Source of the DNA: Sulfurimonas sp.
Lineage (GTDB): Bacteria > Campylobacterota > Campylobacteria > Campylobacterales > Sulfurimonadaceae
Direction: 5' to 3'
Length of the DNA stretch: 16,932 bases
Assembly: GCA_026987995.1 (NCBI GenBank)
Contig: JALSMC010000138.1
Coordinates: forward strand, 1-16,932
A model generated the notes under the pieces. That model ran no database searches. It saw nothing but the letters and a program-made list of their open reading frames with translations, and had not been told where the DNA came from. A program made the position numbers and the translations under genes. Positions 310-16,932 of this stretch are shown here, piece by piece. Numbering within the stretch: position 1 is the stretch's first letter; the number at the start of each line of letters is the position of its first letter.

Positions 310-402
310 ATAAATGAGTTAATAAAAATAGCCTAATATAGGCTATAGTATTGAATCACTTTTAAACCTTAAAGATGAATCAATAAATGAATTAATAAAA
401 AT
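310..402. repeat. Direct repeat pair flanking the terminator
   Basis: Two 20-base segments, 310-329 and 383-402, match at 19 of 20 positions (core ATAAATGA, then TTAATAAAAAT) and start 73 bases apart. The left copy overlaps the T-tract of the hairpin at 321-346. In AT-rich DNA this may be a local duplication with no function. Confidence 0.4.
321..346 (-). terminator. Rho-independent-like terminator after the BREX operon
   Basis: ATAGCCT (328-334) and AGGCTAT (340-346) form a perfect 7-base stem with a 5-base loop. On the minus strand the stem is followed by TTTTATT, giving a hairpin plus T-tract. There is no T-run on the plus-strand side. It lies about 207 bases beyond the brxL stop and before the CRISPR array, so it could end the BREX transcript and shield the array from read-through. 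The stem is short and only moderately GC-rich, so termination may be partial. Confidence 0.55.
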
Positions 403-552: not shown

Positions 553-2607
553 CTACTCCATCAAAATACTTTTCTGCATCAACATCTGATTATCCGAATA
601 AAAAGGCACATCAGTATATCCAAGTACAGAAGCTGGTACATTTGTTAGTTCTGTTAAGTTATCCATTGGTACAACTACCGCTTTTGCTCCATTCTCTGAA
701 AGCATAGTAATTTTATCTGCAAAGTTTGTAGCTCTTTGTATCGCTCCACCAACAGAGATATCACCAAGTACAGCTAAACCTGCTTTTAAATTCTTTTTGT
801 ATATAGCCGACACTATTGCAATATATACAGCGGAACCTAGACCTGTGGAAATTGTAGCACCCAAAATATTACTTACTTGAATGGTTACATCAAAATTCTG
901 TAAAGAGTGTTGCTCACTAAGTATAGTTTTTTCATTCGCTTTGATATATTGATATGTATTTTTGATATTCTCTTTTACACTTGTATTACTTACTCCTGTA
1001 ATATTCAACTTTCCTGATCCAACAGTAGTGACGACTTCTATCCTAACAAGTGCCATATTCTCGCCATCACTTGTGCTTGTATAGCAAACCCCTGGTTGAA
1101 GAGGAGTGTTTTCAATAAGATGAGAACCTTTCTCTTCTGGGAGTCCTACAAAGAACTCCTCTTGAGTCTCTTTATCTATGTACGAAAAGTTTGTATCCCA
1201 AAACTCCATACCGCCTATTCGTTTGAGTTGTTCTTTTACTCGTCTTCTCATTTCAAGTGCAATTACAAGATACTCTCTCACATCTTCTTTTGTGTAGTTT
1301 CCATCAGGGTGCATTAGTTTTATAAATCCTGAGACAGTCTTTTTAACGGGTTTTGTATCCCGCTGTTTAAGATGTGAACCCAGAGCGAAAAACTCTTCAA
1401 GCACATCCGTATAAGTCACCCTTCTAAAAGATTTTAATGCCTCAGAAAAGTAGTCTGTACTAAAGCCAAAGTTTGAAGTAAAATGCTTTGGTGCAAACTT
1501 TACCACCTCCCAACCAGGAAGATAAAAATGAATACGATCTAAAAATGCAGTATCACTATTTACTTCATCAGAAAGTGGGCTAAATAGATTAGAAGTTTGA
1601 AGTACAGTCTCTACAGGCTGATTGATATTACCATTGAGAATGATTGATGCAACACCTGTTATCTCTCCACCTGAACCAGCACGAGAGAATGAACCAGACT
1701 CCATATAATCTTTCATCAGTGGAATCGCATCTCTATCTTTAAATATTTTATCAGTTGCTTCATCAAAACATATTGCATCCCATTGACCAACAGCACCAAC
1801 TTTTCCAGTTGAACCATGAACAAACAACTTAGCAATTGTTCCTTGACCACCAGAAATAAGCACAGCATAAGGAGTAAGCTCTTTATATACAAATGATTTA
1901 CCAGTGGAACGAGGACCAAGTTCTATAAAGTTAAAGTTTGGTTCAACCATTGGCAGTAAACGAGAAAGTAGTAGCATTTTCACTCTATCCGTTATTCCCT
2001 CTGCGTTTGGCTCATACCCACAACTACGAAGTAAAACATCCAGCCACTCTTCTTTAGTAAAGTCTTTTCTTTTATCTATGATTTTAGAATTATCAAATGA
2101 AGAGAGTTGAATAGGTTTTATATTTTGTACAACAAATGGAAAGATATTTTGACCAATCTTTATGCTTGGATCGTACTCAACATCAATTATTGCCCATATA
2201 CCACCCATTAGTATTTTATCGTGCTGATTTACAAGAGCATCATTGATATTGGCATCTTTGATATTACTATTTTGCAGATGAGCCCAGTATTTATCTTTTT
2301 TAGAATCAAGACGAACAGATATTTTATCGATAATCTTATACTTACCGTCCTCTCTAATACGAGAATGAATTTTTGTCGCTTCTTCAGGATTCACATAATG
2401 CTCAGAAAGAATCTTCTTTACATTATCAAGCCCCTCTTTTATCTTCTCTTCATCATCAGTAGAACAAGAGTTCGCTATGAGGTATTCAAGTACGAACACA
2501 GGTACATTTGCTCCAACTTTTACAGAACGGACCAAGTCTTTCTTAACAACATACCCTCTAAAGTTATCTAATAATTTTTGATCTAAGTCATCCAATACAA
2601 TCATCAT
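553..2607 (-). CDS. brxL: BrxL, BREX Lon-like AAA+ protein
   Basis: BrxL is the last gene of type 1 BREX operons. It is a DNA-binding AAA+ ATPase with a Lon-like C-terminal domain, required for phage restriction in the systems studied. In this 684-residue protein the Walker A is GPRSTGKS (231-238), the Walker B is ICFDEA (279-284), and an arginine-finger-like segment AFLDRIHFYLPGWE is at 354-367. The Lon-like domain covers about 500-680. By hand alignment to Lon, its catalytic lysine is present (K632 in FADKITML), but the Lon GPSAG serine site reads GLGSA (589-593), so the serine position holds glycine. Two ATG codons in tandem (2605-2607 and 2602-2604) follow AGGGG; the second has the better spacing, so the protein may be one residue shorter. 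The gene starts 12 bases after the pglZ stop and ends in TAG. Identity is strong; protease activity is doubtful. Confidence 0.95.
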   Translation of the reverse strand: MMIVLDDLDQKLLDNFRGYVVKKDLVRSVKVGANVPVFVLEYLIANSCSTDDEEKIKEGLDNVKKILSEHYVNPEEATKIHSRIREDGKYKIIDKISVRLDSKKDKYWAHLQNSNIKDANINDALVNQHDKILMGGIWAIIDVEYDPSIKIGQNIFPFVVQNIKPIQLSSFDNSKIIDKRKDFTKEEWLDVLLRSCGYEPNAEGITDRVKMLLLSRLLPMVEPNFNFIELGPRSTGKSFVYKELTPYAVLISGGQGTIAKLFVHGSTGKVGAVGQWDAICFDEATDKIFKDRDAIPLMKDYMESGSFSRAGSGGEITGVASIILNGNINQPVETVLQTSNLFSPLSDEVNSDTAFLDRIHFYLPGWEVVKFAPKHFTSNFGFSTDYFSEALKSFRRVTYTDVLEEFFALGSHLKQRDTKPVKKTVSGFIKLMHPDGNYTKEDVREYLVIALEMRRRVKEQLKRIGGMEFWDTNFSYIDKETQEEFFVGLPEEKGSHLIENTPLQPGVCYTSTSDGENMALVRIEVVTTVGSGKLNITGVSNTSVKENIKNTYQYIKANEKTILSEQHSLQNFDVTIQVSNILGATISTGLGSAVYIAIVSAIYKKNLKAGLAVLGDISVGGAIQRATNFADKITMLSENGAKAVVVPMDNLTELTNVPASVLGYTDVPFYSDNQMLMQKSILME

Positions 2608-2619
2608 TTACCCCTAATT

Positions 2620-4845
2620 TTATAATAGTCCGCCAAGATCTCTGGCATTATCTTTTTTTATTACAACCTTATCTAGTTGCTCTTTACTTGTAATATCTAG
2701 CAACTGAACTTCAATCTCTTCATATCCATCAAATGAGTACTCTTTTGTTGCACGAGAGCCACTTGTAAGTGTAATAATATCACTCTTAGATATCTGTTTA
2801 CCCTGTGCAAAAAATAAAAGATATACTTTTCTCTCTTGTGAAAACAGGTCATTTTTAGGTGAGTCAGCTTTTATTTTTATGCTATACAAGTTTCCCATAA
2901 CAGAAGCTAAATCACTTTTATTCGTGATACTAGCAGATAAGTTGTTTACATCTTCTTTTTCTGTCTCCCAGCAAAGAAATGGAGTTATTAACTCTTGTGG
3001 AGACAATCCACCATGACTAAAACCATAAGCTCCAACCGTTTTAAATGGACTCATCGTTGTTGAGAAATAGAGCCAGTTATATTCACCGTAAGGCTGCTCT
3101 TTTTCTATAAACATAGCTCTATCAACATTCTGTTTCTCAACAGTTCGTATATATCTTTCTGCTTTTTTAACCTGCCCACTGAAATTAGCTACTACTTTAT
3201 CAGACTCACTCAAGTGTCCAGTAAGAACAAACCCATGGTCCGTAATCAAGTATACTTTCTTATATCCATTGCTGAGTAACATCTCTATCTTTTGTGCAAA
3301 GTACTTCTCTGCTTCTGGAAAGTACTTTAGAGCTTTATTGTTCATCTTGTCGCCAAGTTCATCAATATCTTTATATTGACATACCAGATACTGATGCTGC
3401 GTATCTTCTGTTACTTTATCAAGATATACAAATCCAATATCTTTATCATTATGCTCGTCTGCAAAAAACTGTTCTCTTTTATGCAGTGTTGGTTCCACTT
3501 CAGCAGTTGAGATATAGATCTGACTCATGTTGTTCTCAGTTTCAGATGGAGTATCTACTAAAATAACATTATTACTCAACTTAAACTCTGAAGGGACTAG
3601 AGCTACAACATTCTGTGCAGCTTCATAAGTAACCCCATCCCCTACGATTATAGCAGTCTTTTGAGTGTTACTTTTGATAAGTCTATCTAGTGTTCCTGTC
3701 TGATTTTGCTCATATTCATCAAAGTATTTAAACCATTTATCCAAGAAAATCATGATGATATTTTTGTAGTACTCTTGATAAGGTTCGAGTATAGTTCTGT
3801 TTTCAATAAATTCAGTATAGAGTCTTCTCATAGACTGATCTACGCTATACAGATGTTTTGTATAAAATTCAATACATTCGGCCATAGATGAGAGCTGGTT
3901 AATATCTTTTTCATCAAACTCCACTAACTCTTTTACATCATTCCAAAAAATGATACCCATACTTTTAGCTTGTCGGTTCTCTCTTCTTTGGTTAATTTTT
4001 GAAAGACGCCTAACCATCACATCTTTATCATTTAAATCTAAACCTATCTCTTTTAACCATGCATGGTCAACAGATACAAAAGGATGAGAAGGGCTAACTG
4101 CCCAAATGTCTAAGTCTTGAGAAAGAGTATAGTTTTTAAGATATTTATCAAAAGAGTCTTTACACTCCCTAGAGTCCAACCAAGCTATATAAACATGTTC
4201 GAAAGTCTTATCTATACTTCCACTAGCTAATCCATCAAACATTGCCTTAAGGACTTCCTGCGCTAATGTCTCTGCTGGTTTTTCTATATAGTCTTGATTT
4301 AGATGTTCATTTATCTTTTTATAGAACTGAGTTTTAAGATGATTATCATATTTATCTGTATAACTTTTAGGGTCATGTAAAAATGGCAACAACTCTTTTT
4401 CCATATCAAATATCTCACCAACACCACTACTAAGACTAATCCAATAGCTTGCATCTTTACTTACACTCACTTGTGCAGCAGATATTAGTTCATCTTCTGT
4501 CATGTTGAGATTAAGGTTGAGAGTTATATGAAGTTTCTCTTTGATGTAGTTTTGTAGATACTTGATTTCAACAACACCATTAGTCTCGCAATACTCACGG
4601 ATAAATTTCAAGTCACTCTTTTCTCGTGAAGTATAGATAAGATACTTTTTGCCATCAGCTCTATTCTTTTCAATCAGATACTTTACATATAACTCTTCAA
4701 TTTCATTAGATACTTCATGAACCTCAATGCTTTCATCCAAGGTATCAAGTAAAAACTTTGCTTTTTGAGACTCATCGACAAATACTACGATTTGGTGTTT
4801 GTTGTAGATAGATTCTATGTCTTTTTTGAACCATTGATCAATCAT
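2620..4845 (-). CDS. pglZ: PglZ, BREX alkaline-phosphatase-family protein
   Basis: PglZ is a core BREX protein of the alkaline phosphatase superfamily. It is needed for the system, though its natural substrate is not settled. In this 741-residue protein the metal-site signature is split along the sequence: AIIVGDGVTYEAAQ (398-411) holds the nucleophile region with D403, VYLITDHGFVLTG (531-543) holds D536 and H537, and SHGGLSPQEL (610-619) holds H611. The order and spacing of the DG, DHG and HGG elements match the PglZ domain. The N-terminal half (1-390) has no motif I recognise. The ATG at 4843-4845 follows AAAGGAG by about ten bases. The gene comes after the AlbA_2 gene with a 66-base gap, the widest in the operon, and that gap holds a possible regulatory hairpin. 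Hand counts give about 30-32% GC, clearly below the outer parts of pglX. brxL follows after 12 bases. Confidence 0.93.
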   Translation of the reverse strand: MIDQWFKKDIESIYNKHQIVVFVDESQKAKFLLDTLDESIEVHEVSNEIEELYVKYLIEKNRADGKKYLIYTSREKSDLKFIREYCETNGVVEIKYLQNYIKEKLHITLNLNLNMTEDELISAAQVSVSKDASYWISLSSGVGEIFDMEKELLPFLHDPKSYTDKYDNHLKTQFYKKINEHLNQDYIEKPAETLAQEVLKAMFDGLASGSIDKTFEHVYIAWLDSRECKDSFDKYLKNYTLSQDLDIWAVSPSHPFVSVDHAWLKEIGLDLNDKDVMVRRLSKINQRRENRQAKSMGIIFWNDVKELVEFDEKDINQLSSMAECIEFYTKHLYSVDQSMRRLYTEFIENRTILEPYQEYYKNIIMIFLDKWFKYFDEYEQNQTGTLDRLIKSNTQKTAIIVGDGVTYEAAQNVVALVPSEFKLSNNVILVDTPSETENNMSQIYISTAEVEPTLHKREQFFADEHNDKDIGFVYLDKVTEDTQHQYLVCQYKDIDELGDKMNNKALKYFPEAEKYFAQKIEMLLSNGYKKVYLITDHGFVLTGHLSESDKVVANFSGQVKKAERYIRTVEKQNVDRAMFIEKEQPYGEYNWLYFSTTMSPFKTVGAYGFSHGGLSPQELITPFLCWETEKEDVNNLSASITNKSDLASVMGNLYSIKIKADSPKNDLFSQERKVYLLFFAQGKQISKSDIITLTSGSRATKEYSFDGYEEIEVQLLDITSKEQLDKVVIKKDNARDLGGLL

Positions 4846-4855
4846 AATTTCATTG

Positions 4856-4909
4856 CTCCTTTAATAAAACCTTTAATAAAATTTCTTTCAATTTCTAATT
4901 TATTAAAGG
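4856..4909 (-). promoter_or_regulatory. Inverted and tandem repeat at the pglZ ribosome site (possible RNA switch)
   Basis: In the mRNA sense an arm CCTTTAATAAA (4909-4899) is followed by two identical tandem 12-base units (4881-4870 and 4869-4858), each containing its perfect complement TTTATTAAAGG. The arm can pair over 11 bases with the first unit (18-base loop), leaving the ribosome site free. It can instead pair with the second unit (30-base loop), burying the AAAG-G part of AAAGGAG that serves pglZ. The two folds exclude each other. The geometry is seen in the sequence; regulation is inference. The stems are AT-rich with two G-C pairs, so stability is modest. It may instead be a scar of the cargo insertion. 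Confidence 0.45.
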
Positions 4910-4911
4910 AA

Positions 4912-6585
4912 TTAAACATCAGAAAACTCCCATATAGGCGAAGTATTCGTACCACTATTCTTAATTTTCTTTAATTTATTAGAGAGTTCATTAATAAGAT
5001 TATTAATTTTATTCTTTTTCTGTGTATCATCCATGTACTCAGGTAATTTCCCCCAAAGTAAGGAATTTATATCATTACGAGTCATTGAGCCATGTTCTGT
5101 AATAGATTTAATAATCAAATCAAGATAGTACTGTTTATCAAAAGCTCTATTTTTAGTGTAACTAGCTTTATCCCCAGTAGCTTGTGCCACTTTAGCAGAA
5201 ATATAGAGATGTGGTTTTCTTCCTTCAATTAAACCTTTGACCCTAAGATCACTAACAATAGCTTTATCCAAGTCCTGTTTTTTCACAATCCTATCAAGAA
5301 ATATGACATCCATAAGGCTAAGCTCTGAGTTTGAAGACAACAGCTTTGTGTACTTCTCATCTAATATCTTCCCATGAATAGTTACTTCAACTTTATTGTC
5401 AGCAATTTTATAATCAGGCATAGGAAAAAATCTCTTTTTTTGTATGGAGAACATTCTTTTGATACCACTACCAATAGTATCAATCATATTTATCTCAACC
5501 ATACAAGCACACAAAAATTTGTTTCGATAAACTTCAGATGGAGTATCTCGTTCTATGATGCTTTGTATATCTCCAGCCAAGAAACTACCTGCATTTGAGA
5601 TGACTAACTTATCTGGAAACTCAACTATATTCACTCTTCCTGCTACTTCATAATCTTGATGAGCAATACTATTGTGAAGTGCTTCGTAAAGAATCCAGTT
5701 GTCATATTTATCAACCTCTTCGGGGAAGAGTGTACTATCTGCCATGTATCTGTACTTAAAGTTTCGGATTTTATCATGAACTTCTTTTGCACTCAAAATA
5801 AGTGGCAGTCCAAAGTGTTCATAACTTTGCTCCATCCCATCCGCATCTTTTAGTATCCATGTTAATTGAGGAACAGATGAACCTAGCAGATAAGAAGACT
5901 CATCTTTTCCAAGTAGCAAGAGTGTAGAGTTTGTAATTTTTGAGTGTATAGTTAGTTTTGCTTTATTTAAAAACTGCTTATTACTCCAGTCATCAACTTC
6001 CTCAGCTATTCTAGAGTGCTTCTTTTTATACTCTTCTCTTGCAACTGAAATTGCTTCAGTCGAAAGATCTTCAAATGTTGCATCCTTACAAATATTTGCA
6101 GACCAGTCTGTATCTACAGCAATACTTTCATTTAGTATTACTGCTTCTCTCTCAGAAGTAAGCTCTATGAGACTATCTCCTTTTCTTTGCCATGCTGTTT
6201 TATGAGCATAGACAGGTTTTCGTGGCAAATGTTTAGGTATATGAATAATCCAAACTATTTGATGAGTATCAGAAGTGATAATCTCCTCGATTTGAAGTCC
6301 TTCACTGCTTAAGTTTGTACAGTTTTCAAGTAATCTGCGTGGAAGACTCTCAGCTGTATAAGCAGATAAGTTTTGAATTCCTTTTATAGCAAGAGAACCA
6401 TCTTCTACTCCAATTACTAAATTTCCACCTTGCATATTAGCTATAGCAGAGATATAAGAGATAATATCTTCTTTTCTTGCTCCTGAAACACTATGTTTAA
6501 GGTTTTTAAACTCTTTCCACTCACAAGCTTCATTCTCTTTTGGATAGTTTGTTTGTATATATGCTTGTAGTTCCTGTTTAGTCAT
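4912..6585 (-). CDS. AlbA_2/HATPase_c_4 ATP-binding protein (COG2865 type)
   Basis: Proteins of this type join a Schlafen AlbA_2 nucleic-acid-binding domain to a small GHKL-like ATP-binding module and a helix-turn-helix tail. They are usually annotated as predicted transcriptional regulators, and they occur often beside restriction and BREX genes. Counting from the ATG at 6585 the protein is 557 residues. The AlbA_2 domain covers about 10-150, with the core IANMQGGNLVIGVEDG (48-63). The HATPase_c_4-like part shows YEALHNSIAHQDYEVAGRVN (300-319) and DTIGSGIKRMF (369-379). The C-terminal third looks like winged-helix sequence (about 420-535). A TTG lies directly upstream, but GGAGG is six bases from the ATG and only three from the TTG, so I chose the ATG. 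It overlaps the gajB stop by eight bases (ATGACTAA), which implies translational coupling. It could regulate the operon or act as an added effector; the sequence does not decide. Confidence 0.85.
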   Translation of the reverse strand: MTKQELQAYIQTNYPKENEACEWKEFKNLKHSVSGARKEDIISYISAIANMQGGNLVIGVEDGSLAIKGIQNLSAYTAESLPRRLLENCTNLSSEGLQIEEIITSDTHQIVWIIHIPKHLPRKPVYAHKTAWQRKGDSLIELTSEREAVILNESIAVDTDWSANICKDATFEDLSTEAISVAREEYKKKHSRIAEEVDDWSNKQFLNKAKLTIHSKITNSTLLLLGKDESSYLLGSSVPQLTWILKDADGMEQSYEHFGLPLILSAKEVHDKIRNFKYRYMADSTLFPEEVDKYDNWILYEALHNSIAHQDYEVAGRVNIVEFPDKLVISNAGSFLAGDIQSIIERDTPSEVYRNKFLCACMVEINMIDTIGSGIKRMFSIQKKRFFPMPDYKIADNKVEVTIHGKILDEKYTKLLSSNSELSLMDVIFLDRIVKKQDLDKAIVSDLRVKGLIEGRKPHLYISAKVAQATGDKASYTKNRAFDKQYYLDLIIKSITEHGSMTRNDINSLLWGKLPEYMDDTQKKNKINNLINELSNKLKKIKNSGTNTSPIWEFSDV

Positions 6586-8383
6586 CAAAAACCTCCAAGA
6601 ATTTTGATATTCTTCTTCTCTTTACTCCACCCCAAGGCATTGTTCTTTGAAGAGGATATGTTACATACAGAAATCTTTTCGCTCTTGTAAATGCAACATA
6701 TAAATTGTTTTTTTCTTGCTTCAAGTCAACTCCCCCTTTTTGAACAGCTCTATAGTCTGGAAAGGTTTCATGATCCATACCAATTAGAAAAACAATATCA
6801 AATTCTTGTCCTTTCATTGTATGAACTGTACTAAGGGTAATACCCTTATGTTGTGTAAGAGTATGTGTTTGTCCCAATGCCATAGCATTTTTAAATTGAT
6901 GTAGAGACTTCTTATCTGTACTTTTTGCATAGTTAAGCCAATGCTTGACAAGTTCATCTATATCATGATAGAACATACTTTTTTCATCTTCATCAGTAAG
7001 GGTGATATTATCCCGAAAAGTTTCAAATAGTTTTTTCAAATTACTACCATCATCTTTAAGACTAGTTGTTATATCTAATATTTGTTTTACATCTTCATCA
7101 ATGATTTCATTGTTTGGATTCACTAAATTATCTAATCGTTCTCTATGTAAAATATCTTGAGGATTTATTCTAATACGAAAAGCCAAATCAAAGATTTTCA
7201 TTAATTTAGATTCAAACTTAACTGCCCCAGGAGTCATCTTGTAATTAAAAGGGATACCTGCTTCTTTCAGAGCTTTTTCTAATGGGTTAAATACATATTT
7301 ATTTCGGGCTAATACAACCATCGTTTCATATGTTATTTTACCTTCTATATCATCTTCAGACTGTTTTTTAATAAGCTTATGAATTCTCTTTATCACACAT
7401 TGAGCTTCTTCATTCTCATCTTCACATGATTTTAATTTAAACTTTCCCTCCAATGCCATAATAGAAGTATTTTTACTTTTTGGCAAAATCTTATTTGCTG
7501 CATCTAGCACAGCTTTTGAAGAACGATAGTTTTCACTTAACTCAAAAACTTTGGGACTAAAATCTTTAGCAAATTCTTTATCCATATAATCTGAAGATGA
7601 ACCTGTAAAATGAAAGATAGACTGATTAGGATCACCTACCATCATTACATTTTTATGTTCAGCATTATTTGTAAGTGCTAGTAGTAGCTTATATTGTGCA
7701 TTATTTAAATCTTGAGCTTCATCAATACATATAGTGTGAAAACCTCTACGATATAGTGAAGATATCTGGGGATAGTTGATAAATAATTTATATGTTAACA
7801 ACAATAAATCATCAAAGTCTATTGCATTTTGGGATCGTAATATATCTTGATAGTTTTGATACAGAAGCACCATATCCTCATTATTTGTATGTTTAATAAG
7901 CTCCTCATCAGGAATAAGTTCTCTTTTAACTTTAGCAATAAAATCAAGGGTGTTGTAACGATATAAATTTTTATCTTTAGAACTCTTTTCTTTATATTGC
8001 TGTGAATAAGTTGGTGTTTGATTTATTGCTTGTTCAATAAGTTCTAGTCTATCACTATCATTTTCAAAAATATGTGGCATTTTAGATAAGCCTATTGAGC
8101 TACCATGATTTTCTAATACATACCGACAAAACCCATGAAATGTACCAATAAATAAACGACTTTTAATATCAGAAGTCTCTGTAAGTCTAGTTCTGATTTC
8201 CTCACCAGCTTTATTTGTAAAAGTTAAAGCCAGAATCTTCTTTTTTGTTTTCGTAAGCAAATGTCTAATCCGTTCAGTCAATACACGAGTTTTACCACTT
8301 CCTGCACTAGCTTTAACATAGATTGGACCATCTTCTGCAAAGACTATTTCTTTTTGCTTTTCAGATAAATTAATTGTTTCCAT
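6578..8383 (-). CDS. gajB: GajB-like UvrD/Rep superfamily I helicase (Gabija)
   Basis: This 601-residue protein is an ATP-dependent helicase of the UvrD/PcrA group, the expected partner of the OLD nuclease encoded just upstream in Gabija defence. The full motif set is present: Q-motif LSEKQKEIV (6-14), Walker A ASAGSGKT (25-32), motif Ia LALTFTNKAGEEI (51-63), Walker B DEAQD (221-225), motif III GDPNQSIFHFTGS (250-262), motif IV ENYRSS (284-289), motif V TVHTMKGQEFDIVFLIG (519-535) and motif VI LYVAFTRAKR (561-570). It is about 100 residues longer than the Bacillus cereus GajB I recall (494), so a generic UvrD-like helicase fused into a Gabija-type pair is possible. The ATG shares a base with the gajA stop (TAATG), with GAGGAG just upstream, so the two are translated together. 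A stand-alone repair helicase is unlikely given this coupling. Confidence 0.9.
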   Translation of the reverse strand: METINLSEKQKEIVFAEDGPIYVKASAGSGKTRVLTERIRHLLTKTKKKILALTFTNKAGEEIRTRLTETSDIKSRLFIGTFHGFCRYVLENHGSSIGLSKMPHIFENDSDRLELIEQAINQTPTYSQQYKEKSSKDKNLYRYNTLDFIAKVKRELIPDEELIKHTNNEDMVLLYQNYQDILRSQNAIDFDDLLLLTYKLFINYPQISSLYRRGFHTICIDEAQDLNNAQYKLLLALTNNAEHKNVMMVGDPNQSIFHFTGSSSDYMDKEFAKDFSPKVFELSENYRSSKAVLDAANKILPKSKNTSIMALEGKFKLKSCEDENEEAQCVIKRIHKLIKKQSEDDIEGKITYETMVVLARNKYVFNPLEKALKEAGIPFNYKMTPGAVKFESKLMKIFDLAFRIRINPQDILHRERLDNLVNPNNEIIDEDVKQILDITTSLKDDGSNLKKLFETFRDNITLTDEDEKSMFYHDIDELVKHWLNYAKSTDKKSLHQFKNAMALGQTHTLTQHKGITLSTVHTMKGQEFDIVFLIGMDHETFPDYRAVQKGGVDLKQEKNNLYVAFTRAKRFLYVTYPLQRTMPWGGVKRRRISKFLEVFDD

Positions 8384-10236
8384 TATGCTGGCTCCTCAAT
8401 ATTTAATACATTTTTTATCTTCGCAAAAAGATTTCTAATTAATTGTGGTAACTCATTAGCACTTGCAACTATAGTTTCAGCTATTACTGGACCAAACTGT
8501 GTTTTTTGAGATGTCATACAATCATATAGAAAATCTTTAAATCCTTCATCTCCATCATAGTTTCGAAGTATATCTTCATATATATTTTGTTCACAATCGC
8601 TACATGTAGAAGCTGTTTTAATTCTTTTTTGAACAGTTCCATTTTTTTGTAAAAGTTCTTCTTCGAGATATGTAACACTTTCTAATTTTTCAAAAGCTAA
8701 TTTAATCTCTTCTATAAATCCTTCATTTAAAAGATACCTTTCAAAATCCGCTCCATCTTCTAATATAAATATATTTGTAAAAGTCGATAAATCCACTGTA
8801 TCTAACTTATAAACTTTTTTGATATCCTTCTTCAGTTTCTTTACTACAGGTGTTTCTCCATCACTTAAAATTATCCATGGAATTTTCAAATACTCAGCAA
8901 AGCGAATAAACGGCAAATAGTTTCCATAGCCTCCAACACCAACAAAATCAACTCCTAATTCAACTGATGTTTTTCCAAAATACTTATCAAAAAATATTGG
9001 CAAGGCTTGCTCTTCTGTTTCACCTTCAAATAGCACCAAGCACTTAGAAAAGAAAATTTCACCTCGTGTGTTAATAACTTGTCTGTTTATTTTTCGTAAA
9101 TCTTCTTTACTTAATTCATCAACATTTATCTGTCCACACTCTACAATTTCATTTTTATAAAAGTTTCTAACCTCTTCAATTTTAGCAGTTGCAGCAATAT
9201 ATGGTGAATGAGTTGATATTATTTTTTGACCTACAATATCATTGATTTGCGAATATAGTTTCTTTTGTGCATTAGGATGTAAATGTGATTCAGGCTCTTC
9301 TACTGCTACAATAGGAAAAAATACAGCATCATTTTGTTCAGAGTTAATTTTAAAAAATTCCACAAATGCCTTAAGAGTTAAGAGCGATGACCAACTTCTA
9401 GTACCCATTCCATGATACTCCATTAAAAAGCTATCCTCATTATCTCCATAACTAATAGTGAGACCTTTGCCTAAATCTCTTATTTTTTTAGTAAAAGGAG
9501 TTATTTCTACACCACCATTGGTAGAGTCCATAGCAGAATTTAATTCGGTCAAAGCAGTTTTAATTATTTTTAATATCTCACTTTTTTCTACTGCTGATTG
9601 ATTAAGTGATTCTATTTTCTCTTCTATCTCTGCAATATCTTCAGTACTATATTCTATTTTTGAAAGCATTTTTCCAATATAAGAGCTTTTTAGTTTAATA
9701 TCTTCTAAGATATCTCTTTGTGCATCCATATAAAAAAATGGTATCTCATCAAATCTAAAAGATGTCTCATTGCCATTATCAAGTTCATACCAATGATGTT
9801 CTGGATCTTCTCCAAATTTCAGTTCAATCCATTCTTGTAAAATATATTGTTTGATTCTTACATTATTTGTAATTGGGTCAATTGAAGCTATGGTTCTCAG
9901 AGGTATATAAGCAGAGTCCTCTGTGAATTTAATTCTAGCATCTGTAAACAATATCTCCCATTCTTCAGAAAAGTTTTTATTTTCATCCGTGTTGTTTGGA
10001 ATTATCATAATATCAACTATTATTTGAGTACCAATTGTATTGCCTTCGATATAAAAATCATCTTGAGATAAAAACTGACGATTTCCTAAAGCAATTTGCA
10101 TAGCTTTTAAAAATGATGTTTTACCTGAATTATTCATACCTGTAAGCACAGTTGTTTGTTCAAGTTCAACTTCAATATTCTTTAAACCTCTAAAACCATT
10201 AACACGAACTGTTTTTATTAAAATAGAATTACTCAT
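8383..10236 (-). CDS. gajA: GajA-like OLD-family endonuclease, ATPase plus TOPRIM (Gabija)
   Basis: OLD-family proteins join an ABC-type ATPase to a TOPRIM nuclease. When paired with a UvrD helicase they form Gabija, where the ATPase senses nucleotides and the TOPRIM domain cuts DNA. In this 617-residue protein the ATPase shows Walker A GMNNSGKTS (33-41), a signature-like region MGTRSWSSLLTLKA (277-290), Walker B IVAVEEPESHLHP (309-321) and the H-switch STHSPYIA (341-348). The TOPRIM part shows LFEGETEEQA (402-411, acidic cluster), ILSDGE (456-461), GADFER (495-500, matching the DLE element of OLD proteins) and QKTQFGP (577-583, the conserved lysine site at K578). All elements look intact. 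A cysteine pair CSDC (545-548) sits in the late TOPRIM region. Length is close to B. cereus GajA (578 as I recall). The start is an ATG ten bases after the pglX stop, with AGAGG overlapping that TAG stop. Confidence 0.92.
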   Translation of the reverse strand: MSNSILIKTVRVNGFRGLKNIEVELEQTTVLTGMNNSGKTSFLKAMQIALGNRQFLSQDDFYIEGNTIGTQIIVDIMIIPNNTDENKNFSEEWEILFTDARIKFTEDSAYIPLRTIASIDPITNNVRIKQYILQEWIELKFGEDPEHHWYELDNGNETSFRFDEIPFFYMDAQRDILEDIKLKSSYIGKMLSKIEYSTEDIAEIEEKIESLNQSAVEKSEILKIIKTALTELNSAMDSTNGGVEITPFTKKIRDLGKGLTISYGDNEDSFLMEYHGMGTRSWSSLLTLKAFVEFFKINSEQNDAVFFPIVAVEEPESHLHPNAQKKLYSQINDIVGQKIISTHSPYIAATAKIEEVRNFYKNEIVECGQINVDELSKEDLRKINRQVINTRGEIFFSKCLVLFEGETEEQALPIFFDKYFGKTSVELGVDFVGVGGYGNYLPFIRFAEYLKIPWIILSDGETPVVKKLKKDIKKVYKLDTVDLSTFTNIFILEDGADFERYLLNEGFIEEIKLAFEKLESVTYLEEELLQKNGTVQKRIKTASTCSDCEQNIYEDILRNYDGDEGFKDFLYDCMTSQKTQFGPVIAETIVASANELPQLIRNLFAKIKNVLNIEEPA

Positions 10237-10246
10237 GATTTATCCT

Positions 10247-13200
10247 CTACCAATCCGCTGCAAGATATTTTTTTAACTGCCCAGCATTGAGCACATCATA
10301 CGCTAACATCTTTTTCTTTTGTAGTGGGGCTATGTTTTTTCCTACTCCGCTGTCTAGGATTGGGTTGTAGCCTTCTTGTAGGAGTTCATCTATTTTTGTT
10401 TTGAACTCTTTTATCTCGGCTAGTTGTTTGTAGATGAGATCTTTTTCGTTTTGAGCTTGGGCTGAGTTGTTGTTAGCTAGGTCGCTTTGTCTGTTTACTA
10501 AGGCTCTTTCTCTGTGTTCTATGTAGACGGACTTTAGTCTGAAAAGGTTATCTCTGCTCCATTTGTAGATGATGATGTAGGCTTCAAAGCCTTTGTGTTC
10601 TCCGCTTGTCAGGTGCCAGATAAATGGGGTTTTTGGTAGGTACATGAAGAGGTTGAGATGATCGCTTAACTCTTTGAAAAAGTAGTTGTTTAGATAGTCG
10701 TTTAGTTTTCTTCCTATGAGGCTGTCAAAAGATGAGAACTGTGCAGAGCTGAAGCCTTTTTCGTGGAACTTATCTTGGATTCTCTCTATAAGGACTTTTT
10801 CTCCTGCGTTTTGTACAAGTGGGATGATGCCGTCTTCATCTTCCATCAGTATCTCTCTGATCATATCTGCTAAAAACTCCATAGCGATAGTATGCATTCG
10901 CTGTTTTGGAAGGGTTTTAGCTTCTTTAAACCAATACCAAACATTGATAGGATTTACTTGATGTCGGATGCAGAACTCTTCTAAGTCGTTGTTGCTTTGA
11001 TAGAGTGAGCCAAACTCAGCTATAACACTCTCTTTGTTTTCAAATTTCTCTTCTGGTAGGTTTTGTATATACTCTTTGATGTTATCAAGTGGAAACGCTG
11101 CTACTTCATCTGCAAGATAAGCTTCTTTAGACTCTTTTTCAACAGGCAATGAACCGATACTCTGCCCCTCTTTTTCAAGCACCATAGCGATGTCGTTTTT
11201 ATTTAACTCATAGATTTTAAAAATCTCTTCGTTGATGATGGCTTCATTAATGAGGATTTGTGTTAAGAGATGATTTTCGTGGTTTAGGTAGTCTGTGATT
11301 CTTTGCTTTATACTACTTTCCTTATTAAAAAGTAGCGGAGATTTCTCAAATTCCTTTTCTATAATACTATAGTTAAGTAGATTCTCTTTTATTTTAATAT
11401 TTTGATTTACTAAATTATCAATTGTTAATTCAATAACTTTTGATGGACTAACAAATGGTATCCTCTGCAAGTCACCTTCTGTAGTATTGACAGTAGGATT
11501 AAAACAATTAATAATATATATTGATAATTTAGAATTAATAAATCCTAATCCATAATTTAGGTTGGCATTTTCTATTGGAATTAATCCAGTTGCTCCTACA
11601 TCAAATATATGATTATCTGGGAAAAACCTATACGATACCCCTTTTGAAGAAGACCTTCCCGAACATGTAATTCCTTTTTGAAAATAGAAATTTTTATTCC
11701 TTAATGTTCCGCCATTGTCTTTTAGTAATTGTCCATTGTTTTCATAATTGACACACAACCAAATATTACCAGCCCACTTATTATATTCTCCACCTTTACA
11801 ATAATTAACCCATTTTTTATTATCTTCAATATAATTTTTTGAAATTGAATTACGATCTATTTCCCACCAAAATCTTAAAAATTTCAAATTATTTGCCGTG
11901 GATAATCCAGAACAAACTTTTAAATATTTATCGAGTACTTCAGTTGTAAACTTCTCCCTAAACTCATCACTAATCCAATAGATAAAAGGGTAAGACTTGA
12001 TGATCTTTAGTTTCTCTTGAGGGAGTGTGTAGTTGTGTTTGTTTGGTATCCCTTGGATGTAGTCGTCTAAAGCTTTTAAAAACTCACCTTTTTTATATTT
12101 TTCTTGTAGATTAGTAGTTAAATTAAAATACAAACCACTATCATCAGATTTTGACTTGGACAACACATAAAAAGTAGCATCAAGTAAAATACCAGGACCA
12201 AATAGATTGACCCTATCAAGACCATAGTCAACCATTACATCTATGTGCGTTTTCTCAATCATAAACTTTCTAACATCTTCAAAAGTTTTTATGAACATAA
12301 AAGTATGTGGATGGATTAATGCTATTTTCCCGTCATCATTAGCAAGTTCATAACATCGTTTTATAAAAGAGCTGTAAAGGTTCGTATGAAATTTATAAGG
12401 CTTTTTATAGTTCGCTTCTATAAATCCCTTCAAATCTTTCCCAAAATCACTACTATCCGTATAAGGTGGATTTGCCGTAGCCACATCATACTTGGTATTT
12501 AAAAGCTTCAAAAAAGTGATGGCATCTTGTGTTTTACACACCATAAAACTATTGCCCTCTTTTTTAGCATACTGAGCCACTGCCTTTTCAAGGTTTTCAA
12601 AAAACCTCTGCTCAAAAGCCTTATACTCTTGCAAGTCTGCGGTACTAAAGAGGTCTGCTCCCTCTCTTTGTATCTTCTCATAGAGAGCTTCTACCTGCAC
12701 TTTGATCTTCTCTTCTATCTTGATAAGTGAGCCAAACTTGTAAGCAAACTTCAAGTCATCCCAGATGCTTTGTATGAGCTGTTTTTGTTGAGAGTCCAGC
12801 TTGGTATCGTCCTCAAAGATGTACCTTACCTCTTCATACTCTGGCAGGTAAAAGTCAGATGAGACAACATTGAAACGCAGACTGCCGATACTTCGTCTTT
12901 TGCGTTTGGCTTTAACAAAGAGTCCAAGCTGTGCCAACTGTATGGCTCTATCGTCCAAGTCCACACCGTGAAGGTTATGCTCGATGATGAGTCGTGGTAT
13001 CTCATCTTCATCATACTCAGCCCCATAGTTCTCTATCTGATCGAGGTAGAGTTCATAAAAAAGGTCATATGCAAAGAGCAGAAAGTTCCCTGAACCCGAA
13101 GCGGGGTCTATGAGCTTTATCTCGGTGAGGGGTTTTCTATCTCGCACTTGCGTTTGTGGGGCATTGGCTATCTTGTGCTTCTCTTTTATCTCAGAGTCAG

Positions 13201-13936
13201 GGTACATCTCTAAGTAGAGCTTACCCAGTGAGTTCTCTACTAAAAACTGCACCACCCAACGAGGGGTATAGACTTGTGACTGTAGTGAAACCTTGTCGTA
13301 CTCTACTTTTTCATTGCTCTCTTTAAAAGCTAGTTTTTTGGCATTGTTATAACTCTCATAGAGCCAACCGAGTATGTCGTCACTCTGCCAAATGTTTGCT
13401 TCTACTTGAGCATCATCTTCTACCGCATTAAAAGCATCTATGATCTCGTTGAGTTCTATCACATAAGGAAGAAGTGCATAGGGGTAGTCTTTATGGTAAA
13501 GGGGGATGTCTTGACTGAGTACATTAAAAGCATCTTTAATGTAGAGACGGATACCTTCTAAATCTTCACTCCGCATAGCGGGATTCTCTTCGAGCCATGC
13601 CTTGTGACCAAACGACCTGTCTCCATGCTCACTCTGCTTGGTGATGATAGGAGGAAAGAGACTGTGTGCTTCCATCACTTTTATGGCTGCTATACGGTTA
13701 AAAAGGGTAAAAGTAAGTTCATCAAGTGCTTTTTCTCTTGCCTCTTCGTAGTTTCCCACTTCATCAATGTGGTTTTGAAGCAGTACATCCAGCTTTTGGC
13801 GTTTGTCGTGAAGTTCCACAGGGATCTTCTCGATCTCCATCATTTTACTTTGCCCGATGCCTAAACGAGCAAACTGCTTGTCAAAGGCTTTATAGGTCAA
13901 CTCTCGTATATGGTCTACATGATCACTTAATTTCAT
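10247..13936 (-). CDS. pglX: PglX, BREX adenine-specific DNA methyltransferase
   Basis: PglX methylates adenine in a non-palindromic site to mark host DNA and sets the specificity of BREX. This 1229-residue, full-length protein shows the N6-adenine methylase motifs: YTPRWVVQFLV (223-233), SAM-binding DPASGSGNF (277-285), acidic HGVDLDDRA (323-331) and catalytic NPPY (489-492). The region after about 500 holds target recognition and has little motif content. No frameshift or stop interrupts it. The ATG follows AAAGGGGC, which overlaps the brxC stop (gap 12 bases). Base composition changes inside the gene: sampled rows are 45-50% GC in parts of the outer thirds and 18-30% between about 11330 and 12000, suggesting an exchanged recognition domain. 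gajA follows ten bases later, marking the start of the accessory cassette. Confidence 0.96.
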   Translation of the reverse strand: MKLSDHVDHIRELTYKAFDKQFARLGIGQSKMMEIEKIPVELHDKRQKLDVLLQNHIDEVGNYEEAREKALDELTFTLFNRIAAIKVMEAHSLFPPIITKQSEHGDRSFGHKAWLEENPAMRSEDLEGIRLYIKDAFNVLSQDIPLYHKDYPYALLPYVIELNEIIDAFNAVEDDAQVEANIWQSDDILGWLYESYNNAKKLAFKESNEKVEYDKVSLQSQVYTPRWVVQFLVENSLGKLYLEMYPDSEIKEKHKIANAPQTQVRDRKPLTEIKLIDPASGSGNFLLFAYDLFYELYLDQIENYGAEYDEDEIPRLIIEHNLHGVDLDDRAIQLAQLGLFVKAKRKRRSIGSLRFNVVSSDFYLPEYEEVRYIFEDDTKLDSQQKQLIQSIWDDLKFAYKFGSLIKIEEKIKVQVEALYEKIQREGADLFSTADLQEYKAFEQRFFENLEKAVAQYAKKEGNSFMVCKTQDAITFLKLLNTKYDVATANPPYTDSSDFGKDLKGFIEANYKKPYKFHTNLYSSFIKRCYELANDDGKIALIHPHTFMFIKTFEDVRKFMIEKTHIDVMVDYGLDRVNLFGPGILLDATFYVLSKSKSDDSGLYFNLTTNLQEKYKKGEFLKALDDYIQGIPNKHNYTLPQEKLKIIKSYPFIYWISDEFREKFTTEVLDKYLKVCSGLSTANNLKFLRFWWEIDRNSISKNYIEDNKKWVNYCKGGEYNKWAGNIWLCVNYENNGQLLKDNGGTLRNKNFYFQKGITCSGRSSSKGVSYRFFPDNHIFDVGATGLIPIENANLNYGLGFINSKLSIYIINCFNPTVNTTEGDLQRIPFVSPSKVIELTIDNLVNQNIKIKENLLNYSIIEKEFEKSPLLFNKESSIKQRITDYLNHENHLLTQILINEAIINEEIFKIYELNKNDIAMVLEKEGQSIGSLPVEKESKEAYLADEVAAFPLDNIKEYIQNLPEEKFENKESVIAEFGSLYQSNNDLEEFCIRHQVNPINVWYWFKEAKTLPKQRMHTIAMEFLADMIREILMEDEDGIIPLVQNAGEKVLIERIQDKFHEKGFSSAQFSSFDSLIGRKLNDYLNNYFFKELSDHLNLFMYLPKTPFIWHLTSGEHKGFEAYIIIYKWSRDNLFRLKSVYIEHRERALVNRQSDLANNNSAQAQNEKDLIYKQLAEIKEFKTKIDELLQEGYNPILDSGVGKNIAPLQKKKMLAYDVLNAGQLKKYLAADW
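11330..12000 (-). other. AT-rich segment of pglX, putative swapped target-recognition region
   Basis: This stretch encodes about residues 646-869 of PglX. Hand counts on 60-base rows give 18% GC at 11341, 22% at 11401, 30% at 11461 and 22% at 11821. Rows in the flanking parts of the same gene give 45% at 10561, 45% at 12601 and 50% at 13081. A milder AT-rich stretch (27-28%) also appears at 12121-12420. The segment lies after the NPPY motif, where PglX and type IIL-like enzymes read DNA. The contrast is seen; recombination of the recognition domain is inference. Confidence 0.5.
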
Positions 13937-13948: not shown

Positions 13949-16932
13949 TTACTGCTCATCTATGCTCAATTCTATCTGCTCATCATCACTAGCCCCTGCC
14001 AATGATTGAAGTTGTGCACTTAAAAGTGCTCTGTATTCACCTACGCTCATCTTTGTTTTAGAGATGTTTAAATGCACTTTTTTTGCTTCTTTAGGCTTAG
14101 GTGACTCACCCGGTTTTGGTTCTTGTTTTTTCTCTTTGACAAAACTGCTCTGAACAATCATAAGCTCTGACTCTTTGGTCTGAACCAATTGTATATAGTT
14201 AAGCACCTCTGAGAGTGAATAATTACAGCTTTTACACTCAATTGAATAGTCCATCTCAACTTTAGAGACGATACGCTTAGAACAGTATCTGTGAAGCTCT
14301 TGGAGTTTTTGAGCATTGTGGGTATTGAGTTCAGAAGGATAGGCACTAAGCTCTTGTTGTGCCTTGGTTACCTTTGCTTGAAGGGCAGTATAACTTGCCG
14401 TCATGATGGCAACATCAGACTGCATCAGTTTAAAATACATATCTTTAACAGTTTGTGCCAGCTCCTGAAGTTTAGCAAAGTTGCCGACCAGATCTTGTTG
14501 GTACAGCGTATTAAACTCTTCTTCTGCTTCTGCAATGGCATCATTGCTTTTGTCTGCTTTTGCAAGTTCTGCGACAACTTCTTGTGTAAAGTGCTTAAAC
14601 TCTTTGACTTTGACAAAGTTTTTCTTGATAAACTTCTGTGCTTTTAGTATGTTCTTGATCGCTTTGGTGAAACTCTCTTTGTTTTCTAAGAAGCTCACTG
14701 CCTTGTCGATGTAGTTGGCTTCTGTCGTCAGAGATGAAAAGTTTTGAAGTTCTCTTTTTTGCTCTGCAACTGTTGCAAAGACCTTTTCAAAATCAGGTAC
14801 GGTGTCTTTCATCGTGCCTAAGGCTCCTATGAAATGTTCTGCCAAAACTCTGATGGCATCAACCAGTTCAAAGTCGTTGGTGCTCCAATCTATCTTTTTG
14901 TCAGTATGCTCATAAAAGTCCAAGTCTAACATCGTCTGTACCAGTTGGTTCTTTTGGGTAGTGCTGAGTGTCTTAGAGAGCGACTTGAAAGAGGCTGCTC
15001 TAAAACGGTTACTGGTAGTAAAGACCTCATGTACCGATCTGTCCGAATAAGAGAAATACTCATGAGAGTTATGTCTAACGACCAACCTTCCTGCTCTAAA
15101 GAGTGTTGCTAAAGTAGTTACGATTGTTCCGTAGGTGTAACCCCATGGTGCTCCGGAGAGATCCATCTCTATGGATTTACCATCAGTAAAATTGGTGATC
15201 TTAGAGGTGATCTCTTCTACCACTTTGAGGTTGTCACCTATGAAGTTTCCGTTTTCATCAAAGAACTTAAAATCATCGCCTGAGAAGTATCGGTTAAGTT
15301 TATCGTTGCTCTTTTCATTGAGAAGTTTTGGGACAATACTTTCTGAGAGTTGAGAAGCAAGCCGTTTAGTGTAAGTGTTGTTGATAAGCTTGCGTTGCAC
15401 TTCATTTACGGTTCCCTTAAAACTGTCTCGGTTGAGAAGCTCTTCATCGTACATGTAGATGAGTGATCCTGTTACATAGGCATCTTCTATCTTGACAAGA
15501 AGGTCTTTCTCTTTCTCTTCTTTGATAATGGAGAACTCTCGTATGATCTGTCGTTTGTTCTGGTCGTTATCGTTGGCGTATTTGTCTTCCATAAAACCGT
15601 AGCGTCTTATCTCACCAATAAGCTTGTCTATCTCTGAAAAGTGTGCATTGTTGGGAATGAGGGTAATAAGATTTTTATCGTACTGTGTATCCATCTTAAT
15701 GCTTTCAACAAACGCTTGCCTTTCGCCGTTAATGTTAAAAAGACTGTAAGCGGTAATCCTCAAATGTTTGTTATTAGAAGCACTGATGTCGTCATCTAGG
15801 TCAGTCAAAATGTTAAACTTATAGGCAAGATCGTTGTCGTTAATATTTGCAACTGCAGTAAAGAGACCGGTTTTTTTAATGCAAGTAACAAGCTCACGCT
15901 TTTTGATATAGAGTTCTACCTCAAAGTCCTTCATCTCCTCAAGCATCTTACTCTCAAGGTCTGAAGTAATCTTATAGTTGTTGTTAGAGAGAAGCAGTAT
16001 TTTAGCTTCTACCAATAAGTCTAAAGCCTCTTCTACCATAGGCTTTGTAGCATAATAACTTTTGAGGTCAGAGATGTAGGTTTTTGTAATGTTTTCAACA
16101 GTTGGAGAAACAAGTTCTGATTCATTTAAAAAATGGATGGTTTTGAGGAGTAGCTCTCCTGCTAAGTTGGAATTGGCATTTTTCAAGACCTTTTTAGCAT
16201 TGTCGTACTTAACACCAAGGTCTGTAGGTGGTGCGGTTTGAGCTTCTGTACAGATGTTATGTGCTGTGGTAAATGTAAACAGTGAGAGATCTTTCATCTG
16301 TTTTCTAAGCACATCAAATGTCGTGATGATCATCCCTCTAGCAGCGACCTGATTGGCGACTAAGGCATTAGAGCTAAAGAGGAACTTCTGCAAGAGATGA
16401 AACTGGTACTTATGAAATGGATAATAAGTAGCAAAGTCATCTGCAGATTCTGTTTTGGTAGGGAATGATGAGTTTAAGTTGGTGGCATCTGCAATTTCAC
16501 CATTGTTTTTATTGTAAAAATCGACAAGTTCTTTGAAATACTGCTCTTTTTTCTGAAGCAGACGACCACGGATAATTATGTCAACATCGGTTGAGTCAAG
16601 GTGCATCTTGGTTTTAAAACGGTCAGTTACTTTGGTAAGCTGACTTTTGTTTACATTGGCATTGTTAATCACATCATCAAGTTTCTCTTGTGCAATGGCA
16701 ATCGTCCAAACTTTTCCACCCAAACTAGAAAGAGACTCACTGATGCCTTCAAGGTCAAGCAAGTTGAATTTGTTTTGACTGATGGCTTCACTCGCTTCAT
16801 CAAAAATAAAGACAACTCTTTCGTCTTTGAATTTTAAGATGTACTTTTCAATTTCATCTTTCAACTTGTTCGCATCGAAGTTTTGTATAGCATCACTATA
16901 GACTGCTTTGGTATCTTCATACTCACTTTCAG
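13949..16932 (-). CDS. brxC: BrxC, BREX P-loop ATPase (5' end beyond window)
   Basis: BrxC is the large P-loop ATPase of BREX, needed for restriction and also for methylation in the type 1 systems tested. The frame stays open to the right edge of the window, with 993 codons visible; a TTG at 16864 is an internal leucine codon and not the start. Family members are about 1200 residues, so roughly 200 N-terminal residues, including the Walker A, are missing. The Walker B is visible as VVFIFDEASE (about visible residues 39-48), followed by a sensor-like strand VWTIAIAQEKLDD and VTDRFKTKMHL, which may carry the arginine finger. The last third is rich in helix and coiled-coil sequence. A single cysteine pair (ECKSC) follows, then a Pro/Lys-rich linker and an acidic tail ending IDEQ. 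Sampled composition is near 40% GC. brxA and brxB are expected to the right. Confidence 0.93.
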   Translation of the reverse strand, partial: ESEYEDTKAVYSDAIQNFDANKLKDEIEKYILKFKDERVVFIFDEASEAISQNKFNLLDLEGISESLSSLGGKVWTIAIAQEKLDDVINNANVNKSQLTKVTDRFKTKMHLDSTDVDIIIRGRLLQKKEQYFKELVDFYNKNNGEIADATNLNSSFPTKTESADDFATYYPFHKYQFHLLQKFLFSSNALVANQVAARGMIITTFDVLRKQMKDLSLFTFTTAHNICTEAQTAPPTDLGVKYDNAKKVLKNANSNLAGELLLKTIHFLNESELVSPTVENITKTYISDLKSYYATKPMVEEALDLLVEAKILLLSNNNYKITSDLESKMLEEMKDFEVELYIKKRELVTCIKKTGLFTAVANINDNDLAYKFNILTDLDDDISASNNKHLRITAYSLFNINGERQAFVESIKMDTQYDKNLITLIPNNAHFSEIDKLIGEIRRYGFMEDKYANDNDQNKRQIIREFSIIKEEKEKDLLVKIEDAYVTGSLIYMYDEELLNRDSFKGTVNEVQRKLINNTYTKRLASQLSESIVPKLLNEKSNDKLNRYFSGDDFKFFDENGNFIGDNLKVVEEITSKITNFTDGKSIEMDLSGAPWGYTYGTIVTTLATLFRAGRLVVRHNSHEYFSYSDRSVHEVFTTSNRFRAASFKSLSKTLSTTQKNQLVQTMLDLDFYEHTDKKIDWSTNDFELVDAIRVLAEHFIGALGTMKDTVPDFEKVFATVAEQKRELQNFSSLTTEANYIDKAVSFLENKESFTKAIKNILKAQKFIKKNFVKVKEFKHFTQEVVAELAKADKSNDAIAEAEEEFNTLYQQDLVGNFAKLQELAQTVKDMYFKLMQSDVAIMTASYTALQAKVTKAQQELSAYPSELNTHNAQKLQELHRYCSKRIVSKVEMDYSIECKSCNYSLSEVLNYIQLVQTKESELMIVQSSFVKEKKQEPKPGESPKPKEAKKVHLNISKTKMSVGEYRALLSAQLQSLAGASDDEQIELSIDEQ

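Follow-up and report, generated by a model that had tools for sequence, protein, structure and literature searches.

Effectors embedded in loci of bacteriophage exclusion (BREX) systems have been catalogued by Rakesh and Krishnan, and the available part of their survey (PMC12839542) reports nuclease-linked OLD ATPases, mostly TOPRIM-linked, from at least 1242 taxa and, in BREX and related systems, Schlafen-HATPase-winged helix-turn-helix (wHTH) proteins from no fewer than 1017 taxa; the catalogue of OLD-TOPRIM modules in BREX names Gabija and PARIS. Here we analysed a stretch of 16,932 nucleotides from Sulfurimonas sp. (contig JALSMC010000138.1, positions 1 to 16,932; hereafter the window), in which a Gabija gene pair, gajA-gajB, and a Schlafen-type gene lie between pglX and pglZ of a BREX type 1 operon. 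The gene content, the intact motifs, the packing and the recurrence elsewhere are matters of direct observation, and we consider it probable that these genes are co-expressed cargo of the operon, in which an autonomous Gabija forms a second layer of defence. Because OLD-TOPRIM and Schlafen effectors in BREX are already catalogued, the window, with both inside one BREX operon, belongs to a kind that is not new. However, the available text of that survey does not state a recognition-effector position in common with type I restriction-modification (R-M) operons or an exchange of the TOPRIM insert of GajA. We found no description of this positional parallel or of the insert exchange in the open-access literature searched, and nothing specific in it on Gabija within restriction operons.

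Other described systems resemble the locus in part. Gabija of the Bacillus cereus VD045 type shares with the window the gene pair, the combination of ABC ATPase and TOPRIM, the adjacent SF1A helicase and the best PADLOC families, whereas the window pair is nested in BREX, has DxE for DxD and a GajB of 601 aa, and belongs to a GajA family whose profile scores 38 bits to the GajA structure 8sm3. Gabija is otherwise characterized by a 4:4 assembly of GajA and GajB and by DNA nicking that nucleotides restrain. BrxU, in the BREX of the pEFER plasmid, is likewise an unrelated restriction activity within a BREX-1 operon and a complementary layer, BrxU and BREX targeting different phages in deletion tests, but it is a GmrSD type IV enzyme placed between brxC and pglX, not between pglX and pglZ (PMC8565348, in its available part). 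PrrC in EcoprrI is also an effector encoded alongside a modification-dependent system. In the available text of PMC3874168, however, it is an anticodon nuclease invariably tied to a type Ic locus, and Gabija is not so tied.

The operon and its cargo

The long genes of the window are all on the minus strand, with successive gaps or overlaps from brxC to brxL of +12, +10, -1, -8, +66 and +12 bp. In transcriptional order the features are as follows.

13949..16930, minus strand: brxC, 5' end missing at the contig end, 993 aa left (PADLOC BrxC PDLC02493, 1143 bits)
10247..13936, minus strand: pglX, BREX-1 adenine methyltransferase, 1229 aa (PADLOC PDLC02519, 1604 bits; NCBIfam NF033452, 595 bits, cut-off 500)
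10237..10246, minus strand: ten-base spacer between the pglX stop and the gajA start (open reading frame coordinates and sequence)
8383..10236, minus strand: gajA, class 2 OLD nuclease with ABC ATPase and TOPRIM, 617 aa (PADLOC GajA PDLC00067, 739 bits)
8381..8385, minus strand: gajA/gajB stop-start junction TAATG (sequence and open reading frames)
6578..8383, minus strand: gajB, UvrD/PcrA-like helicase, 601 aa (PADLOC GajB PDLC00132, 763 bits; Pfam UvrD-helicase and UvrD_C; alignment)
4912..6585, minus strand: third cargo gene, Schlafen AlbA_2 and HATPase_c_4, 557 aa from ATG (Pfam SLFN_AlbA_2, 45 bits; HATPase_c_4, 50 bits; both above cut-off)
2620..4845, minus strand: pglZ, 741 aa (PADLOC PglZ PDLC02545, 733 bits; Pfam PglZ, 22.6 bits, below the cut-off of 25)
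553..2607, minus strand: brxL, 684 aa (PADLOC BrxL, 944 bits; TIGR02653, 825 bits, cut-off 628)

The BREX type 1 core genes brxC, pglX, pglZ and brxL are thus present in one operon at the PADLOC scores listed, and the last three are full length. Because the contig end cuts brxC, whose match in its own genome spans profile positions 211-1213, brxA, brxB and the operon start would lie outside the window. The brxA profile PF08849 had no match in the 82% complete host genome (2.0 Mb in 334 contigs) and likewise matched none of 14 controls. A first-pass annotation made from the letters alone had given gajA at 10236-8383, gajB at 8383-6578, the TAATG at 8385-8381 and the ten bases after pglX, all of which the open reading frames and the sequence bear out. 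It had also placed the pair in a single orientation between pglX and pglZ. Orientation and interval stand, but gajB is not directly before pglZ: the Schlafen gene, which overlaps gajB by 8 bp, intervenes, and because this gene at 6585-4912 was overlooked, two cargo genes were counted instead of three. A purine-rich stretch precedes each start from gajA to pglZ, and all three cargo frames are open with conserved motifs.

The identification of the pair as Gabija holds in PADLOC, where the best families for the two proteins are GajA and GajB and not other OLD or UvrD families, but it is not echoed in NCBIfam, where neither protein gave a Gabija-named match. As far as profiles can tell, the best PADLOC families confirm gajA-gajB as a Gabija pair. 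The profile scores, together with the recurrence of gajB, detected by tblastn at 76 of the 80 loci of relatives (all but L051, L052, L070 and L076), likewise confirm that the predicted identity and pairing exceed chance. In GajA, Pfam AAA_15, DUF2813 and OLD-like_TOPRIM are all above cut-off. The intact ATPase, TOPRIM and helicase motifs claimed at first pass also agree with the conserved strings present, GajA carrying GMNNSGKT, EEPESHLH, STHSPY and FEGETEE/LSDGE (the last of these TOPRIM) and GajB carrying ASAGSGKT, IDEAQD, GDPNQ, ENYRSS, TVHTMKGQE and VAFTRAKR. Alignment located the acidic residues of the TOPRIM site.

8854..9027, minus strand: GajA TOPRIM acids E404, D459 and E461, equivalent to E379, D432 and D434 of B. 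cereus GajA (HMMER alignment to GajA chains; the latter three are the active-site residues named in the available part of PMC10781630)

For the TOPRIM set of E, G and DxD, E404, G435 and D459 match, and the second acid is Glu (E461) instead of Asp, a position at which relatives vary between D and E; E404 and D459 are invariant in 32 of 32 sequences. In profile searches with the window families, solved OLD and PcrA structures outscored the solved GajA and GajB chains. A profile of 32 GajA relatives gave 38 bits for GajA 8sm3 against 78 bits for class 1 OLD 6p74, and the GajB family profile gave 434 bits for PcrA against 123-124 bits for the solved GajB chains (493-499 aa), while a single-sequence search with the window GajA matched no solved GajA. 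Judged by these scores, the window pair is far in sequence from the solved B. cereus Gabija. In the Schlafen protein, E18 and E23 are kept in at least 90% of 12 aligned rows, and no Pfam profile matched a C-terminal wHTH at E<=0.001.

Where relatives of the pair are found

We compared the window with the best 80 loci of a scan of genome contigs, many of them on short contigs. The annotated set comprised the open reading frames of these loci, of L115 and of 8 plasmid loci, for which profiles were grown from seeds and key neighbours were checked with PADLOC. The labels derived from the seeds are approximate, 'HsdR' and 'PglX' having also caught type IIG-like and SNF2 proteins (L005, L014) and BrxHII (L036, L041). 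Gabija was nested in BREX in four of the 79 relatives' loci with a gajA frame, which is a lower bound because of the short contigs. The copies linked to BREX or type I restriction genes are arranged as follows.

L042, L064: type 1 BREX, gajA-gajB between pglX and pglZ
L036, 1687-18380: metagenome-assembled genome of Gracilibacteria, type 3 BREX in the order BrxC, Schlafen, PglXI, gajA, gajB, BrxHII, PglZ
L041: type 3 BREX in the order gajA, gajB, BrxHII; the upstream gene is a cut piece of 283 aa without identification
L032, L054: gajAB just 3' of brxL
L004 (hsdR cut), L006, L013, L029, L038, L045, L047, L049: gajAB between hsdS and hsdR, with further frames between gajAB and hsdR in L006, L038 and L045
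L022: gajA-gajB-Schlafen-hsdR, cut upstream, counted with the preceding group
L007, L052: gajAB after hsdS, the contig ending before any hsdR
L068, L069, L071, L118, L122: gajAB 3' of hsdR

Wherever both flanks are readable, nested Gabija sits between recognition or methylation genes and effector or motor genes. None of the annotated loci showed gajAB between hsdM and hsdS. Among the same-strand upstream neighbours of at least 100 aa covered by Pfam (37 of 47), 10 are HsdS, and among the downstream neighbours so covered (25 of 36), 4 carry HSDR_N. In L029, L038, L042, L045, L047 and L064, gajA overlaps its upstream gene by 4 bp.

At E<=1e-40, a search of 397 genomes from the class yielded a single further GajA homolog, and a search of 135 genomes from the genus yielded two. 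The nearest GajA relative with readable surroundings, that of genome G189 (L115), lies outside BREX. At L115 (4477-16287), gajAB adjoins opposite-strand DndC and DndD/PbeC-like genes near an Orf5-type gene. In G456 (L117), gajB reads as two frames and no BREX match lies within 0.6-0.7 kb on either side, the context being little known because the contig is 4.9 kb. On plasmids, gajA matched 16 records, of which 8 were viewed, and BREX was found in none of the 8. Two of the viewed copies follow an hsdM-hsdS-hsdR operon, and the others are beside a recombinase gene, umuDC, conjugation genes or CRISPR-Cas.

Several loci add observations of a different kind. At L077 (4419-17041), the hsdS and hsdR genes of a type I operon flank a gajAB pair on the opposite strand, which is labelled 'other' in our counts, and at L014 (1956-13080) gajAB has a type IIG-like methylase pair on one side and a PrimPol-type protein on the other. 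A conserved GajA-GajB-Schlafen trio was considered and weakened: Schlafen proteins occur near Gabija in L022 and L036, but the 'Slfn' of L049 is a HATPase relative and that of L019 is a frame of 132 aa. The L049 protein (7151-8638) is of HATPase type, its N-terminus fails to align as AlbA_2, and its gene stands between hsdM and hsdS of the operon that holds gajAB.

Nesting on the GajA tree

A tree of 88 GajA rows was built with FastTree from 79 of the 80 loci (L070 has no gajA frame), L115, seven of the eight plasmid loci and the window. The labels were assigned manually with the annotation already in view, and loci cut by a contig end were counted as 'other'. The BREX-nested label (5 rows) changes 3 times, at least 2 changes being forced by supported branches, and the label for a position between hsdS and hsdR (11 rows, including L007, L052 and L022) changes 8 times, at least 6 of them forced. 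By these counts Gabija entered BREX two or three times in the sample, and the window represents one of these entries. The operons that enclose Gabija here are of three kinds, type 1 BREX, type 3 BREX and type I restriction, and the enclosed copies come from more than one GajA lineage. The labels for a position 3' of brxL or hsdR do not cluster. All 16 nested rows are confined to one half of the tree (16/65 vs 0/23; Fisher p 0.009, relatedness ignored), and some GajA groups are nested at recognition-effector junctions more often than others. The row nearest to the window GajA is L115, labelled 'other'. A Gabija clade dedicated to BREX was considered and rejected, since the nearest relative whose surroundings can be read sits outside BREX.

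A second layer and its alternatives

The explanation that we judge probable is that a self-contained gajA-gajB module, and likewise a Schlafen-type gene, entered the operon in the interval from pglX (methyltransferase) to pglZ (effector), and that the cargo genes would be read off the BREX transcript. GajAB would then act independently of BREX and attack phage DNA that BREX fails to stop, candidate targets being linear DNA that has been injected and from which RecBCD is kept away, or the DNA of cells depleted of nucleotides. For the Schlafen protein, cleavage of tRNA may be a final line of defence. In the available parts of the respective reports, Gabija of Pseudomonas aeruginosa is 'non-abortive' and licensed by RecBCD antagonists, linear DNA without RecBCD being the proposed trigger (PMC12407980), nucleotide depletion is proposed as a Gabija trigger (PMC10568477), and PglZ is presented as a nuclease (PMC12205998). 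This explanation is supported by the profiles and motifs, by the close packing of the genes in one orientation, by the occurrence of gajAB as a unit without BREX in G189 and in 8 of 8 plasmid regions viewed, by the nesting of other GajA lineages in type 1 (L042, L064) and type 3 (L036, L041) BREX, by the other genes found in the pglX-pglZ interval of plasmid loci and by the precedent of BrxU. To judge from its relatives, the window Gabija is not a BREX-dedicated subunit, and the window would be one more BREX operon doubling as a carrier of other defences. The first-pass inference, a Gabija expressed with BREX as a second layer against phages that escape methylation-based exclusion, is partly supported: identity, packing and the cargo interval agree with it, and its co-expression and its action on such phages stay putative. 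The GC content at third codon positions (GC3) is 0.41 in brxC and 0.38 in pglX, 0.17 in gajA and 0.19 in gajB, and 0.24, 0.28 and 0.25 in the Schlafen gene, pglZ and brxL, and the step at gajA agrees with a foreign origin of the cargo, of which it is no proof. Two points weigh against an autonomous, co-expressed cargo. The GC3 pattern fits an insertion but would also allow a separate expression of gajAB, and the repeated use of the recognition-effector junction exceeds what plain cargo needs, which suggests a regulatory or physical tie.

Such a tie is the substance of the alternative that survives best, a guard like PrrC, which we nevertheless regard as unlikely. The BREX recognition complex would silence GajAB and/or the Schlafen protein, and an Ocr-like DNA mimic or another anti-restriction protein that blocks BREX would free them; if GajAB were held by the complex, the nested position would therefore reflect a physical link. 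The available parts of the reports supply a precedent in PrrC, silenced by a type Ic restriction protein and activated by the T4 peptide Stp (PMC3874168, PMC12409349), and in Ocr, which blocks BREX (PMC7261183). Gabija is found repeatedly between recognition or methylase genes and effector or motor genes (hsdS and hsdR, pglX and pglZ, PglXI and BrxHII), the window order of pglX, gajAB, Schlafen gene and pglZ is nested in the same sense, and gajA often overlaps the upstream gene by 4 bp (the six loci above). However, gajAB also occurs alone on plasmids and chromosomes, five of the 16 copies labelled type I-linked stand 3' of hsdR, and, as far as the available texts go, Gabija is described acting without a restriction partner (PMC10568477, PMC12407980) and RloC, a PrrC relative, is not under the control of the R-M proteins of A. 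baylyi (PMC3874168). Position favours the PrrC model, and the autonomous gajAB elsewhere speaks against it. Were the position a sign of control, Gabija could act as an alarm that signals a block of restriction. An extended form, which we think about as unlikely, is that Gabija of these lineages is a guard that has repeatedly been recruited to recognition-effector junctions of modification-based systems, monitors the integrity of the recognition complex and fires when a phage inhibitor disables it, with the TOPRIM insert of GajA, described below, as its fast-changing recognition or counter-inhibitor surface.

It is very unlikely that the pair is a neighbour of the kind found in defence islands, under a promoter and regulation of its own and beside pglX by chance. 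Promoter-like strings do occur within pglX, but a promoter scan found 53 promoter-like sites where 64.6 were expected in shuffles, that is, no signal. The position recurs in relatives, and, with gajA starting only ten bases after pglX, any promoter between the two genes would have to reach into pglX; both points count against such a neighbour. A passive or decaying passenger, carried as cargo without function, is highly improbable: a related BREX locus of the same genus (in G505) is a decayed remnant, gajB of the genus relative G456 is split into two frames and the second TOPRIM acid of the window GajA is Glu, but the three cargo frames are open with their motifs conserved and D/E variation at that acid occurs family-wide. 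Least credible of all is that GajAB became an integral subunit of BREX, replacing or assisting PglZ or BrxL in restriction, since the tight operon packing and the nested copies in more than one GajA lineage that speak for it are set against full-length pglX, pglZ and brxL in the window, a nearest relative with readable surroundings outside BREX, and BREX nesting in four of 79 loci, itself a lower bound given the short contigs.

A TOPRIM insert of GajA in two types, with probable exchange

Comparison of 120 GajA homologs (P0001 and P0004-P0122) revealed two unlike types of the region that runs approximately from the DxD/DxE motif to residue 575, a long one with a CxxC pair (91 sequences, four of which were assigned by eye, the pattern having missed them) and a short one (29 sequences). 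The window GajA has the long type.

8512..8865, minus strand: GajA residues about 458-575, TOPRIM insert of the long type with CxxC pair (alignments and tree)

On a tree of residues 1-450, insert type changes 15 times, at least 10 of these changes being forced. There are 84 long-short pairs at least 85% identical over residues 1-450, and in the 15 most alike the insert identity is 0.24-0.51, against a mean of 0.73 in a control of 119 long-long pairs of 85-97% identity. We read the two types, from these alignments, as repeated exchange of a module by recombination. That we found no description of such an exchange in the open-access literature searched is weak evidence of novelty. The exchangeable insert points to a fast-changing part of GajA that is a possible target for structural work.

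The interval between pglX and pglZ as a cargo site

The first-pass annotation had called the pglX-pglZ interval a known cargo site of BREX, and plasmid loci agree. In 8 plasmid records with a PglZ like that of L042, PglX was sought upstream by tblastn and found in 7 (it was not found by this search in the Polaromonas record), and all 7 have other genes between pglX and pglZ. The interval holds two genes in P. veronii, one for an Orf5/HEC-06-type protein (PADLOC), a frame of 580 aa in Azospirillum, frames of 426 and 202 aa in Aeromonas, and an AAA gene plus a McrC- or restriction-annotated gene in each of Haliscomenobacter and Runella. Of the two Deinococcus intervals, one is annotated with HNH, DarT and IS3 and the other with DarT and GTPases. 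The brxC-pglX interval of Deinococcus NW-56 holds a UvrD-annotated gene, weakly GajB-like (50 bits), without an OLD gene. As other genes occupy all 7 intervals and the brxC-pglX interval is also used, the interval between pglX and pglZ is a general but not the sole cargo site. At L064 (14014-15551), a Septu-like PtuA-PtuB pair, the PtuA frame of which begins at profile position 109, follows gajB in the same interval, so that one BREX operon holds two extra systems.

Loci of the same BREX subtype, sought for a comparison with and without cargo, were too few for one. The PglZ of the window matched one of 397 genomes of the class, namely its own, and none of 72,556 plasmids at 1e-20. The BrxC model reached full strength in the window alone among the 135 genus genomes, with four distant matches at 113-133 bits, and GajA of L042 had no plasmid match at 1e-60. 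The end of the window operon may be marked by a hairpin, for which the evidence is weak because the window has 12 terminator-like sites where 7.5 are expected.

328..346, minus strand: terminator-like hairpin about 200 bp past brxL, possible operon end (consensus scan)

In G505, the decayed BREX remnant mentioned above occupies L130 17404-19422 / L131 5404-7422 and consists of a piece of the Schlafen gene 92% identical to that of the window, followed by pglZ pieces and the end of brxL.

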